40,988 nt of DNA from an uncultured Coriobacteriaceae bacterium (lineage in GTDB: Bacteria > Actinomycetota > Coriobacteriia > Coriobacteriales > Coriobacteriaceae): positions 1-40,988 of the forward strand of contig CALUIM010000015.1 of assembly GCA_944320725.1 (NCBI GenBank), written 5' to 3'. Below the pieces are notes generated by a model. It had not been told where the DNA came from. It worked only from the letters and a program-made list of their open reading frames with translations, and did no database searches. A program made the translations under genes and the position numbers. Below, in pieces: positions 4,218-17,199 of the stretch (its first letter is position 1; each line of letters begins with the position of its first letter).

Positions 4218-4363
4218 CATATGCGAAGTGTGGATGATTGTACCGCGGTCGCGCTTTAGCAATGAGGACTGACGTTGTGACTATGGCATCTACCAGCGCT
4301 TTTAATGAAGCGCGTTACATGCGCCAGCGGCGTATCCGAAATAACATCCACACTTCGCATATG
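4218..4363. repeat. 146-bp element with perfect 19-bp terminal inverted repeats, element 2
   Basis: CATATGCGAAGTGTGGATG (4218-4236) is repeated as its exact reverse complement at 4345-4363. The 108-bp interior carries smaller palindromes, including ACCGCGGT at 4242-4249 and GCGCTT/AAGCGC at 4296-4313. No coding sequence and no obvious target-site duplication are seen. It sits 273 bp upstream of the amylase start, so a regulatory or transcribed structured role is possible besides a MITE. Confidence 0.6.
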
Positions 4364-4636
4364 ATTCTTGAGCAGTAACATTTTCTGCGCCCATCTTGTG
4401 GCACCTGACGTGAGAATATGGGTCCCCAGATGCACCCATGCCTCAACGTAACGTTCAGAACATCGCCGGCAAACGTGCGGATACCGTGCGGGCGGCATTG
4501 CTCGGGTATCATATGCCGGGCCGCATGCCGCCCAAAGACGGCGCGGCGCCTTTGACGCACATCAATCGCAGCACCATTGTGTGGGCACGCCGCCGCGCAC
4601 CGCGCTCTTGCGGCACGCCCGCCAGAAAGGAACTTC

Positions 4637-6157
4637 ATGAACGGAACGATTCTGCAGGGATTCTCCTGGTACCTGCCATCGGACGGCTCGCATTGGCGTC
4701 GTCTGGCAGAGCAGGCACCCACCTTTGCCTACGAGGGCATCACCGCGGTGTGGATGCCGCCCGCCTACAAGGGCGAGAAGGGTGTCGAGGACGTGGGCTA
4801 CGGTGTCTACGACACCTATGACCTGGGTGAATTCGATCAAAAGGGCACCGTGGGCACCAAGTACGGTACGCGCGCGGAGTACGAGGCGGCCATCGAAGCG
4901 CTGCACGCCAACGGCATCCAGGCGCTCGCCGACATCGTGCTTAACCAGCGCCTCGGCGCCGACGGCTGCGAGGATGTCGTAGCGCAGGAGGTCTCGGGCA
5001 CGAACCGCGGCGAGCTCACGGGCAACAAGCAAACCATCTCCGCCTGGACGCGCTTCACCTTCCCCGGCCGCGCCGGCACCCACTCAGATTTCACCTGGGA
5101 TTGGACCTGTTTCCACGGTGTGGACTGGGACGACAGGGCCAAGCGCAAGGCCGTCTTCCTCTTTGATGGCAAGCACTGGGACGACGCCGTCGACCGCACG
5201 GAAAACGGCAACTACGACTACCTCATGGGCGCCGACGTCGACGTGAACGATCCACGCGTCTTCGACGAGCTCGTGCGCTGGGGTCAGTGGTACGCCGACA
5301 CCTGCAAGCTTGACGGCTTCCGCCTCGATGCCCTCAAGCATATCGACCGCGGCTTCTACCTGCGTTGGCTCGACGCGCTGCGTAAGCACACGGGCAAGGA
5401 GCTTTTCTGCGTTGGTGAGTATTGGGGCCGCACGGTCGAGGAGCTCGACGGCTACTTGGGCCAGGAGCGCGCCATGTCTCTCTTCGACGTGCCGCTGCAC
5501 TACAACCTCTACCGCGCCAGCTGCTCCAACGGCGACGTGGACCTCTCGAAGATCTTCGCCGGCACGCTCGTGGAGCGCGATCCCGCTCATGCCGTGACCT
5601 TTGCCGAGAACCACGACACGCAGCCCGGCCAGGCGTTGCAATCGTTCGTGCATACGTGGTTCAAGCCGGCCGCCTACGCGCTCATCCTGTTGCGCGAGGC
5701 GGGCTATCCGTGCGTCTTCTACGGCGACCTCTACGGCATGCCCAACGATGGCAACATCCCCGCGGTGGCCGAGCTGCCGCTGCTCATGGAGATCCGCCGC
5801 CGCTTTGCCTATGGCTGCCAGCACGACTACCTCGATGCGCCGGACGTGATCGGCTGGACGCGCGAGGGCGATGCCGAGCATGCGGGCAGCGGCGTGGCCG
5901 TGGTCCTCACCGATCGCAACGGCGGCGAGAAGCGCATGTTCGTGGGCGCGGCTCACGCCGGCGAGACGTGGAGCTGCGTGATCGGCGAGCAGGACGACGT
6001 GGTGATCGATGACGAGGGTTGGGGCACGTTCCATACCCTAGGCGGACGCCTCTCGGTGTATCTGCCGGAGAAGACGGCCGACGCCCTAGAGCACGACCGC
6101 CAGCTGCATGCCATCGTGCGCGAGATGGCAGAGGATACCGAGGAGATGCGCGCGTAG
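4637..6157 (+). CDS. Cytoplasmic alpha-amylase, glycoside hydrolase family 13 (GH13_5-like)
   Basis: A 506-residue enzyme that hydrolyses internal alpha-1,4 bonds of starch, glycogen or maltodextrin. Start at ATG 4637 with AGAAAGGAAC upstream; an in-frame upstream extension lacks any signal. There is no signal peptide, so it should act in the cytoplasm on stored glycogen or imported dextrins. Family marks: QGFSWYLP near the N-terminus, WMPPAYKG (39-46), YDLGEFDQKGTVGTKYG (61-77), nucleophile D231 in GFRLDALKH, acid/base E261 in VGEYWG, and transition-state D327 in FAENHDT. Oddly, conserved region I reads DIVLNQRLGAD, with Gln104 where most members have His. Length is close to Bacillus liquefaciens-type enzymes. 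It is monocistronic, with a strong terminator at 6181-6217, and is flanked by inverted-repeat elements on both sides. Confidence 0.93.
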   Translation: MNGTILQGFSWYLPSDGSHWRRLAEQAPTFAYEGITAVWMPPAYKGEKGVEDVGYGVYDTYDLGEFDQKGTVGTKYGTRAEYEAAIEALHANGIQALADIVLNQRLGADGCEDVVAQEVSGTNRGELTGNKQTISAWTRFTFPGRAGTHSDFTWDWTCFHGVDWDDRAKRKAVFLFDGKHWDDAVDRTENGNYDYLMGADVDVNDPRVFDELVRWGQWYADTCKLDGFRLDALKHIDRGFYLRWLDALRKHTGKELFCVGEYWGRTVEELDGYLGQERAMSLFDVPLHYNLYRASCSNGDVDLSKIFAGTLVERDPAHAVTFAENHDTQPGQALQSFVHTWFKPAAYALILLREAGYPCVFYGDLYGMPNDGNIPAVAELPLLMEIRRRFAYGCQHDYLDAPDVIGWTREGDAEHAGSGVAVVLTDRNGGEKRMFVGAAHAGETWSCVIGEQDDVVIDDEGWGTFHTLGGRLSVYLPEKTADALEHDRQLHAIVREMAEDTEEMRA

Positions 6158-6180
6158 GGTCGCGTGTCCATGGAATGAAT

Positions 6181-6217
6181 GCGGGGGAGGCAGTTCAAAT
6201 CGCCTCCCCCGCTTTTT
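6181..6217 (+). terminator. Rho-independent terminator of the amylase gene
   Basis: GCGGGGGAGGC (6181-6191) pairs perfectly with GCCTCCCCCGC (6202-6212), followed by TTTTT. Confidence 0.92.
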
Positions 6218-6271
6218 AGTCTTAACCCATCGATGCCGCACTCAAGAAAATTCGGTTTTTCGCACCGAAAA

Positions 6272-6463
6272 TGTCATTTAGTTCAGATTCCGGAGCATAT
6301 TCGAAGCGAATGCCTTCCAAAGAAAGAGGGCGAATGGGAAAGATATTGTATATATCTATTAAATATAGATATATACAACTATTTCGTAAGAATGATTGCC
6401 ATGAAACGTGAGTAGCAGGCCAGCTTAGATCCCTCATTTCTCCGGAATCTGAACTAAATGACA
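6272..6463. repeat. 192-bp element with perfect 24-bp terminal inverted repeats, element 3
   Basis: The left arm 6272-6295 (starting TGTCATTTAGTTCAG) and the right arm 6440-6463 are exact reverse complements over 24 bp. The interior is AT-rich and its centre holds a perfect 14-bp palindrome (6346-6378). There is no coding sequence. No convincing target-site duplication is visible. The two-level symmetry suggests a MITE or protein-binding element, not a simple terminator. Confidence 0.65.
6346..6378. repeat. AT-rich 14-bp perfect palindrome at the centre of element 3
   Basis: TTGTATATATCTAT (6346-6359) and ATAGATATATACAA (6365-6378) are exact reverse complements around TAAAT. The purely AT stem is striking in this genome. 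It would be a good dyad operator, an att/dif-like core or a cruciform site; none of these is demonstrated. Confidence 0.6.
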
Positions 6464-6560
6464 CAAATGAAGGCAAATCTGGAAAAAACTGCTCCACTCG
6501 CCCACACGGCAGCTCCTTCACTTCGGACAGACGCCCGAGCGTCCGCTGGCCGTCTGGACA

Positions 6561-7613
6561 CTACTCGAAATAGTGGAACTTGTTCGTGGGGAATCTCAGT
6601 GCGACAACGAAGCCCTCGCCTTCATGCGAGCACGCCTCGATGCCCACGCCCATCTTGTCGCAGAGGCGCTTCACCAAATACAGCCCAATACCCGTTGCGC
6701 GCTTGTGCGTTCGTCCGTTTGAGCCGGTAAACCCTTTCTCAAACACGCGCGGAAGATCGGCGGCGCTCACGCCGCAGCCGTTGTCGGCAATCGTGAGCTC
6801 AACGCATTCGTTCGCACCACCTTGATCGACGAGCTCGCCGGTGAACGCAATGCGTGCATCGGTGGCTTTCGCATACTTCACACTGTTCTGGATGATCTGG
6901 CCCAAAACGAACTCGATCCACTTCTCGTCGGTGAACACCGTGAGGTCGAGCCCGTGACGAACGGGAGCTACATGCGCGGCAATCAGCGCCGATGCATTCG
7001 ACTTGATTGAGGCATTCACCAGGTCTGCAAGCGTATAGTTCCTAATCAGGTAGTCGCGATCGAGCGCTTCGGACCGCGCATAGAACAGTGCCTGATCGAT
7101 ATATCCCTCGATCCGCTTCAGCTCGTCGCCTACGCTCTGCAGCCGCTCATAGGTGGCGCCATCCTCTGCACGCTCCTCAAGGTTGGCGAGCATGAGATGC
7201 GCCGCGGCGAGTGGTGACTTCGCCTCGTGCACCCAGGTTTCGATGTATTCGCGGTAGTCCTCGACCTGCCGGCGGTATTCTGCGACATCGTCGTTGGCCG
7301 ATTTCGCAATAGCGCAGAGCGCATCATAGGTAAGCTCGCCTTCGGAAAACGCCGGGCGCTCGATCATCCCGGCAAGCCAGCGAGGGTGCTCGGAAGACGC
7401 GACGAGCGCATCGAGCTCCCGATAGAAACGCCTGCGACGCGCGTAATCAAGGGCAGCTGCCACGAGAGCGCCAGCGAGTGCGATGAAACCGGTAAGCACG
7501 ATGACATCGCGGCCCGCGCCGGCTACCGCAAGCACAAACATGCATAGCAAGTCGGCGCCTACGAGCAGCAACGCGCTCGGAGCGACGGACTTGAAGTAAT
7601 CTGCCGGGCTCAT
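6561..7613 (-). CDS. Membrane sensor histidine kinase, BceS/GraS-like intramembrane-sensing type
   Basis: A 350-residue kinase. Two hydrophobic segments (about 11-31 and 37-57) are joined by a very short loop, so there is no extracellular sensor domain, as in kinases that sense envelope stress through a partner transporter. The dimerisation/phosphoacceptor motif is ETWVHEAKSPLAA, with H129 phosphorylated. The ATPase part has the N box (LGQIIQNSVKYA), G1 (IADNGCGV) and a GIGLYLVK G2 box. Its ATG overlaps the stop of the upstream response regulator in an ATGA junction, so the pair is co-translated. BceS-type kinases usually control peptide-antibiotic ABC transporters, but none is encoded in the window, so the target is unknown. 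Confidence 0.9.
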   Translation of the reverse strand: MSPADYFKSVAPSALLLVGADLLCMFVLAVAGAGRDVIVLTGFIALAGALVAAALDYARRRRFYRELDALVASSEHPRWLAGMIERPAFSEGELTYDALCAIAKSANDDVAEYRRQVEDYREYIETWVHEAKSPLAAAHLMLANLEERAEDGATYERLQSVGDELKRIEGYIDQALFYARSEALDRDYLIRNYTLADLVNASIKSNASALIAAHVAPVRHGLDLTVFTDEKWIEFVLGQIIQNSVKYAKATDARIAFTGELVDQGGANECVELTIADNGCGVSAADLPRVFEKGFTGSNGRTHKRATGIGLYLVKRLCDKMGVGIEACSHEGEGFVVALRFPTNKFHYFE

Positions 7614-8281
7614 GGCTGCACCGAATAGCCCCGGCCGCGATGCGTCACCAAATACCCCGTCACGCCAATGCGCTCGAGCGTGGCACGCAGCCGGTTGATA
7701 TTGACCGTGAGCGTATTGTCGTCGATGAAGGAATCGGAGTCCCAAAGATCGCGCATGATTGCCTCGCGCGACACGATTGCCGGGGCGCGGCGCATAAGCA
7801 ATGCCAAGATACGCATCTCATTTTTGGTGAGCTCGACCTGCTTGCCGTGTGCGGCGGCAACGGAGCGCGCCAGATCGAGCGTAACGCCGCCATGTTCGAT
7901 GACGCTTCCTGCATCGGTGCCTGCTGTACGACGCAGCAGCGCTTGGATGCGCGCGATGAGCACACGGGCGCTGTAAGGCTTGGGCACGAAGTCGTCGGCG
8001 CCGATGGTCATGCTCATCACCTCGTCGATTTCGGTGGTACGCGAGGTAAGCACGATGATGGGCACGTCCGATGTGGCGCGAATATCGCGGCAAATGAGCT
8101 GCCCGTCGGTGCCGGGCAAGGTGAGGTCGAGCAGCACGAGGTCGGGATCGATGGCGCGCACGTCATCCGCTGCGTGTTCGAATGCAGAGCAGCAGGTTGC
8201 ATCGTATCCGTTGTGCTCGAGCAGCTGGAGCAACTCGTTACAGATCGCAGCATCGTCTTCGATAACGTATACGAGCGGCAT
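7610..8281 (-). CDS. OmpR/PhoB-family response regulator, partner of the adjacent kinase
   Basis: A 223-residue two-domain regulator. The receiver domain (1-~115) has the acidic pocket E8-D9-D10, phosphoacceptor D52 (LVLLDLTLPG), a switch Thr/Ser (LTSR) and the conserved Lys in VPKPYS. The C-terminal winged-helix DNA-binding domain (~130-223) contains LTKNEMRILALL and ends HRGRGYSVQP. The start at 8281 has AAGGAGG three bases upstream, preferred over ATG codons 60-100 bp earlier. It is first in a two-gene operon with the kinase (4-bp overlap). It should activate or repress genes when phosphorylated; targets are not visible here. Confidence 0.93.
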   Translation of the reverse strand: MPLVYVIEDDAAICNELLQLLEHNGYDATCCSAFEHAADDVRAIDPDLVLLDLTLPGTDGQLICRDIRATSDVPIIVLTSRTTEIDEVMSMTIGADDFVPKPYSARVLIARIQALLRRTAGTDAGSVIEHGGVTLDLARSVAAAHGKQVELTKNEMRILALLMRRAPAIVSREAIMRDLWDSDSFIDDNTLTVNINRLRATLERIGVTGYLVTHRGRGYSVQP

Positions 8282-15912: not shown

Positions 15913-17199
15913 CTACGCGCCGATGACCTCCATGCCGCCCATGTAGGGACGCAGCACCTCCGGCACCGTAATGGTACCGTCGGCGTTCTGGTAGTTCTCC
16001 ATGATGGCAGCCATGGTGCGGCCGGTTGGCAGGCCCGAGCCGTTGAGCGTATGCAGAAGACGCACGCCCTTGAAATGCTCGGGGTCGCGGTACTTGATGT
16101 TCGCGCGACGTGCCTGGAAATCGCCGCAGTTCGAGCAGCTCGAAATCTCCTTGTACGCGTTGTAGCTGGGCAGCCACACCTCGATGTCGTAGGTCTGACG
16201 TGCCGAGAAGCCCAAATCGCCCGTGCACAGGCTAATCACGCGATACGGCAGACCCAGCTGCTGCAGGATGTACTCGGCCTCGTCAACCATGCTCTCGAGC
16301 TCGTCGTCGGACTGCTCGGGCGTGGCAAATTTCACCATCTCGACCTTGGTGAACTGATGCTGGCGAATGATGCCGCGCGTGTCGCGTCCAGCGCTGCCGG
16401 CCTCCTCGCGGAAGCACGGCGTACCGGCGGTATAGCGCAGCGGCAGCTCGGCGGCGTCGATGACCTCGCCGGCATGCAGGTTGGTGAGCGCGACCTCCGC
16501 CGTAGGAATGAGGAACTGGTCCTCGCCCGTGTGATAGGCATCATCCTCGAATTTGGGGAGCTGACCCGTGCCGTACATGATCTCGCGGTTCACGATCACC
16601 GGCGGGATGAACTCCTTGAAGCCACGGGAGATGTGCGTGTTCAGGAAGAAGTTCTGCAGAGCGCGGTCGAGCGCGGCACCGGCGCCGGCAAGCACGGTGA
16701 AGCGCGCGCCAGAGAGCTTGGCTCCGCGATCGAAGTCGAGGATGCCCAGGTCGGTGCCCAAATCCCAATGCGCCTTGGGCTCGAAGCCCTCGGCGGCGAA
16801 ATCGCGCGGCACACCCCAGCGACGACGCTCGGGGTTCTCGCTCTCATCCTTGCCAACGGGCGTCGCCTCGCAGGGAATGTTGGGCAGATGCGCCATGAAA
16901 TCGTTGAGCTCGGCCTCCAGGGCGCTGCGGCGCTCGGCGAGCGCGTCGATGTGCTCGTTGACCTCGCGCACCGCCTGCTTGGCCGCCTCGGCCTCATCAC
17001 GCTTGCCCTCGCGCATGAGCGCGCCGATCTTTTTCGATTCGGCGTTGCGCGTGGCCTGCAGCTCCTCGACCTTGGTGATGACGGCACGGCGCTCGCCATC
17101 GAGCTCGAAGAAGTGCTCTCGATCCCACGACGTCTGGCGGTTCGCCATCGCGGCATCGACCGCGTCGGGGTTTTCACGAACAAATTTGATGTCGAGCAT
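15913..17199 (-). CDS. serS: Seryl-tRNA synthetase
   Basis: A 428-residue class II synthetase that charges tRNA-Ser (and selenocysteine tRNA where present). The N-terminal ~100 residues form the long antiparallel coiled coil that grips the tRNA-Ser long variable arm ([20 protein letters not shown]...). The catalytic domain has motif 2 ([15 protein letters not shown]) and motif 3 near the end ([20 protein letters not shown]), with the usual C-terminal tail. ATG 17199 is preceded by GGAGGGATC. No T-box leader is seen upstream. It is divergent from the small membrane protein at 17321, and tRNA-Arg lies 99 bp past its stop. Confidence 0.97.

Follow-up and report, generated by a model that had tools for sequence, protein, structure and literature searches.

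Dispersed DNA elements with invariant paired ends and helically quantised lengths in Coriobacteriaceae: candidate protein-bridged microloops

Hin-type invertasomes are assembled from two inverted sites and a phased enhancer, and the copies of the Correia repeat enclosed elements of Neisseria share their interiors and sit upstream of genes. Correia elements are bacterial MITEs that contain an internal site for the DNA-bending protein IHF, and their inversion has been reported (PMC10969869). In Paramecium, the approximately 10-bp periodicity in the lengths of internal eliminated sequences (IESs) has been taken as evidence of a looped excision complex (PMC3464196). In loop-forming operators (lac, ara, and gal), for which the same article cites helical-twist experiments, two helically phased sites 100-200 bp apart are bridged.

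The elements described here resemble each of these systems in part. Like Correia elements, they are intergenic, approximately 0.1-0.2 kb long, bounded by inverted ends, present in many copies, and inverted at one locus; however, their interiors are unrelated, their lengths are helically quantised, and their ends show no decay. Correia elements are their nearest bacterial relatives in kind. With Paramecium IESs they have in common a short, noncoding body, conserved ends, otherwise free sequence, and lengths periodic at approximately 10 bp. Nonetheless, IESs are eukaryotic, number in the thousands, have very short ends, and are excised during development, whereas the Coriobacteriaceae elements are bacterial, comprise approximately 10 copies per family, and have ends of 17-27 bp, with no excision known. 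Phased pairs of bridged sites are the point of likeness to the lac, ara, and gal operators, which, however, flank the promoters they regulate, whereas the ends described here are long, non-palindromic, and located at ten unlinked loci. Finally, a putative three-site phased complex and one inversion recall the Hin-type invertasome, but the ends are not palindromic and the sister genome lacks a serine recombinase. We found no description of such elements in the literature.

Anatomy of the element and its family

The element occupies positions 6272-6463 of the window (i.e., the whole 40,988-nucleotide stretch of DNA that was analysed) and lies between the convergent 3' ends of an alpha-amylase gene (ending at 6157) and a histidine kinase gene (ending at 6561). 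Gene contexts, here and below, rest on open reading frames together with a restricted number of Pfam searches. The features are as follows:

4577-6157, forward strand: alpha-amylase gene (PF00128), 3' end toward the element (context)
6178-6216, forward strand: terminator-like hairpin belonging to the alpha-amylase gene upstream (context, outside the element)
6247-6252: outer A/T-tract on the left, AAAATT (in the half-site alignment, 26-31 bp beyond the invariant 18-mer)
6272-6295, forward strand: left end site, TGTCATTTAGTTCAGATTCCGGAG, with the family's invariant inner 18-mer at 6278-6295
6346-6378: central palindrome, TTGTATATATCTAT-TAAAT-ATAGATATATACAA, with 66.5 bp and 77.5 bp separating its centre from the two 18-mers
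6440-6463, reverse strand: right end site, an exact inverted copy of the left end
6483-6488: outer A-tract on the right, AAAAAA, mirroring the left tract in position
6561-7745, reverse strand: sensor histidine kinase gene (HATPase_c), 3' end toward the element (context)

Both symmetries named in the original prediction, 24-bp perfect ends and a 14-bp central palindrome with a single G and C per arm, are confirmed. The outer arms (6272-6295 and 6440-6463) are complementary at 24 of 24 positions, with 144 nt between them, and the inner arms (6346-6359 and 6365-6378), each containing one G and one C, at 14 of 14 positions around a 5-nt loop. By a simple estimate, the chance of a perfect 24-bp inverted repeat within 300 bp is approximately 3e-8 in 41 kb; in 400-kb samples of two congeners, the longest perfect arms are usually 13-14 bp when repeats of this or other recognisable kinds are set aside. 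The analysis also brought out features beyond those first described, namely the genome-wide repetition of the ends, a symmetry that reaches outward to the A/T-tracts at 6247-6252 and 6483-6488, the phasing of the palindrome with the ends, and a second element at 4218-4363.

A search for further copies of the 24-mer, which the original prediction had proposed, revealed nine pairs in this genome (whole genome, 2.07 Mb, 99.5% complete) and ten in a sister species (Coriobacteriaceae MAG, CALUFC01), all inward-facing and with the symmetry conserved at orthologous loci; we refer to these as family 1. The outcome that would have counted against the original prediction, a lack of any further copy and of conserved symmetry, was not observed. 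Neither genome contains a solo end at up to one mismatch. Within one mismatch, the ends are absent from 58 other relatives, including seven congeners, and at two mismatches no further pair was found among 65 family genomes. The exact 18-mer also turns up in a Synechococcales MAG and in a Lachnospiraceae genome, as single, unpaired sites consistent with chance. A phage or viral origin was rejected, as viral contigs gave no match for three end patterns.

When the half-sites of both species are aligned, the inner 18-mer, TTAGTTCAGATTCCGGAG, is identical in 38 of 38. The outer hexamer, TGTCAT, varies slightly, and the two hexamers of one element often change together. An A/T-tract lies 26-31 bp outside the end at essentially every half-site, on either strand (position -31 is A or T in all 38, and positions -30 to -28 in 37-38), and AT-rich steps recur about every 10 bp along the alignment. 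The interiors of different loci, in turn, have no common sequence, either when compared directly or in a whole-genome DNA search with the 192-bp element, which matched the ends only. A central palindrome is nevertheless present in most copies, with a core consensus of approximately GTATnnATCTAT-N5-ATAGATnnATAC and remaining positions that change on both sides together; it is weak or missing in L029/L043, L034/L042, L030/L044, and L036. A contiguous guide RNA matching the ends was considered and discarded, as the genome offers no further match to the 18-mer within two mismatches.

Helical spacing and evolution at orthologous loci

The end-to-end spacings of family 1 fall at 140-142, 150-151, 162-163, and 172-173 bp, i.e., in steps of one helical turn. 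The best resultant length is 0.93 for periods of 10-11.2 bp, a value reached in none of 20000 simulations, and 0.96 for the sister's ten loci alone; orthologous loci of the two species are not independent, and tests with one element per locus still hold. Periods of 10.5 and 11 bp are inseparable over these spacing ranges. For clear palindromes, the distance from the centre to the 18-mers is 55.5-57.5, 65.5-67.5, 75.5-77.5, or 87.5-88.5 bp, and these classes too are separated by one turn. The AT content inside the ends is likewise periodic, at 10.5-10.8 bp in each species, and the far flanks show a weaker 10.5-bp periodicity too; thus, part of this AT signal may be genome background.

Orthology between the two species is clear for eight family-1 loci and probable for a ninth, L039/L038. 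At the eight, the spacing differs by 0 or 1 bp, and the interiors differ at 19-43% of sites. The ends are perfect at every orthologous locus despite neutral-like interiors, and the 18-mer shows no change in 38 sites vs. an interior divergence of 0.19-0.43. Gap events are scarcer, relative to mismatches, in the interiors (4/362) than in the flanks (26/514; Fisher p 0.002). Between the window locus and its counterpart L033, two 10-bp indels cancel, so that the 144-bp length is kept and the palindrome is shifted by one turn. Hypermutation of the interiors, which had seemed likely from one pair, was then ruled out; the interiors diverge approximately like nearby intergenic DNA.

Further families in the Coriobacteriaceae

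Similar elements with other end sequences occur in every related genus sampled. Other Coriobacteriaceae contain at least nine further families, with different ends and the same quantised lengths, and each of the four additional genomes that were sampled in depth, representing three genera, contains families. The second family (F2), found in congeners, has a half-site of approximately TCGAnnCGrAArTGGGCATCAAATT, with 12-mers spaced 97-100 or 109 bp start to start; it is orthologous across species, occupies loci other than those of family 1, and has a variant, GTGCATCAAATG, in G005 and G006. A third family (F3), from another genus (G010), has ends TATGAAGCCCGTTTTCAGCGAATC, lengths of 127 or 136-138 bp, and was found in one of 65 family genomes. 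In a 460-kb stretch from a third genus (G012), at least seven families have quantised lengths, and a 100-kb sample from a fourth genus (G017) contains one similar pair. Length classes include the following:

Family 4a: 109-110 and 121 bp
Family 4b: 143-144 and 154 bp
Family 4c: 143, 164-165, and 175 bp
Family 4f: 121 and 132 bp

Pooled, the seven families that fall into two or more length classes give a resultant of 0.947 at 10.7 bp, with none of 5000 simulations as high; it should be noted that the congener samples are partial and that the families were defined after inspection of the data, and the length classes of small, three-member families are therefore illustrative rather than independent proof. 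Many further families have inner motifs in common, namely an inverted GAGTAG...CTACTC and a central CTACCTGCGGTTTT. This does not apply to family 1, from which the universal inner core is missing (8.05 vs. 8.42 for shuffles).

Several other structures were observed alongside these families. The second inverted-pair element of the window (4218-4363) is 146 bp long, has 19-bp perfect ends (CATATGCGAAGTGTGGATG), and carries a central CTACCAGCGCTTTT motif, as in families of other genera. In G010, an element at L210:18665-18862 has ends AAGTTAGTTCAGATATGCGT, with 11 bp (TTAGTTCAGAT) in common with the family-1 ends; a second end type, TATGAAGCCGGTTTTCGGTGTATC (L227, L234, and L237), forms 127/137-bp pairs adjoining the TATGAAGCCCGTTTTCAGCGAATC pairs; and L201-L210 contain intergenic hairpins of another type, namely several very long inverted repeats with arms of 50-88 bp around TCTCTGGGGACGTAGCC. 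In G003, ATTGTGTATACCGAAAC sites are clustered in both orientations (L141:5307-5481 and 16248-16384) and resemble multi-site operators. Downstream of pta, G005 has an element with ends CAGGGGGTTATTCATTCTAGTGCCT (L161:16564-16718), compared with a family-1 element at that place in this genome (L041:2965-3134).

A candidate DNA microloop and its alternatives

Site identity, pairing, phasing, conserved length, a phased palindrome, and many parallel families are all observed in these elements. As their lengths are fixed to whole helical turns, they look like sites of small loops tied by a protein. The combination of conserved ends, conserved phase, and free sequence suggests that what is selected is the shape of the DNA, from which we infer bridging of the ends by a protein. 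On the strength of the sequence comparisons, we assign a probability of roughly 0.62 to the reading that these are noncoding DNA-loop elements whose ends are bridged into a microloop by a putative protein, with selection acting on geometry and not on content. A putative sequence-specific protein would bind the 24-bp site at each end; because the ends are a whole number of turns apart, the bound ends would share one face of the helix and could be bridged to each other, and the approximately 145 bp between them would bend into a small loop. In family 1, this bending may be aided by the AT-rich steps every approximately 10.5 bp, the phased palindromic site would be placed near the apex of the loop, and the A/T-tracts just outside the ends would belong to the complex. 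Selection would then act to preserve the length (phase) and the sequence of the ends but not that of the loop. As to its role, a complex serving a transposase- or recombinase-like machine that keeps the elements as non-autonomous units is slightly favoured over chromosome architecture or gene control because the families are lineage specific and the occupied loci differ. A broader proposal, which we put forward tentatively and would not at present back, is that many families per genome form an undescribed class of dispersed DNA microloops, each family having an invariant paired end sequence of its own and most having a common inner code (GAGTAG...CTACTC and a central CTACCTGCGGTTTT) or, like family 1, a palindromic centre; the geometry would be maintained, and the ends would turn over by lineage together with a putative family of bridging proteins. 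Such elements could be chromosome-structuring or genome-defence devices and not transposon relics.

The original prediction had suggested a MITE, a recombination site, or an operator. The notion of a dispersed element with inverted ends holds; however, an ordinary MITE, an invertible promoter, and a structured RNA each fail a tested feature. An ordinary MITE family would consist of non-autonomous insertion-sequence remnants spread by a transposase acting on their ends. Short, noncoding, intergenic elements with terminal inverted repeats, dispersed and restricted to a sub-clade, are what such a family would look like, and the presence/absence patterns agree with it: the congeners examined have no element at carA-carB, and this genome has none at the L036 site. 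Moreover, transposon ends less than approximately 200 bp apart are known to need helical phase, from helical-twist experiments cited in one article (PMC3464196). However, shared descent is not visible in the interiors, which are unrelated between copies, and no autonomous partner with these ends was found, since all matches (up to three mismatches to the 24-mer or one to the 18-mer) are short pairs; such a partner may have been lost from the genome. Furthermore, orthologous loci show no decay of the ends, conserved features extend outside them, and no target-site duplication is visible beside the 24-bp ends, the empty sites at carA-carB and L036 being without clean boundaries. A plain MITE is therefore unlikely.

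In a loop-forming operator, a repressor or activator would bridge the two sites and regulate either the adjacent genes or a promoter within the AT-rich centre. Phased paired sites with integral helical spacing are indeed the mark of looping regulators, and the centre is AT-rich. Nonetheless, the positions of the elements do not track promoters: convergent 3' ends flank the copies at the window, pta/HK, C13, and L036, others lie between carA and carB or in codirectional gaps, and one lies in a divergent gap. The neighbours are unrelated housekeeping genes and do not make up a regulon. The position of the window copy, with converging 3' ends on both sides, offers no support for a classical operator or promoter, and we consider this explanation quite unlikely.

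A single inversion is the only sign of a recombination site. In an invertible switch, a site-specific recombinase would flip the segment between the ends, and a comparison of the two species at the pta locus does show the interior in the opposite orientation with respect to the flanks (matches in the flanks, 810 in reverse vs. 100; interior 167 forward vs. 72, with a null of 29 +/- 5). The joint changes of the outer hexamers also agree with this. However, that is one of eight orthologous family-1 loci, the other seven being colinear, as are all 15 family-2 comparisons (7 loci), and small inversions between short inverted repeats are possible without a dedicated enzyme. Neither directional cargo nor a promoter logic is seen, as the window copy lies between convergent 3' ends and the others are in mixed settings. 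Furthermore, the sister genome has only two PF00589 proteins, both apparently common to this genome and presumably XerC/XerD, and no PF00239 protein, which rules out a dedicated tyrosine or serine recombinase there. An invertible switch thus appears improbable. The window itself encodes a tyrosine recombinase (1018-2016; PF00589, SAM-like N-terminal domain) adjoining a 236-aa protein without a Pfam match; this integrase cannot serve both species because the sister lacks a third PF00589 protein.

A structured RNA, with the inverted ends as a long stem around an inner hairpin, is scarcely credible: the ends of one element covary in their outer bases and changes in the central palindrome are compensatory, but the elements contain no Rfam family, and pairing would leave unexplained the helical quantisation, the outer A/T-tracts on either strand, and the identical 18-mer at unlinked loci. 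A below-threshold match to the Collinsella-1 RNA (RF01700; 29.1 bits vs. a cut-off of 35) was observed at L223:1329-1475, where it adjoins a G010 element and lies outside it.

Families of intergenic repeats in bacteria are normally read as decaying mobile DNA. In the elements described here, the ends and the length are kept to within a base pair while the content drifts freely, which amounts to a natural helical-twist experiment suggesting that selection acts on a three-dimensional DNA loop. Given that families occur across three genera, the putative bridging protein could be sought directly, and it becomes possible to test for a further layer of genome organisation or for a novel type of synaptic complex.
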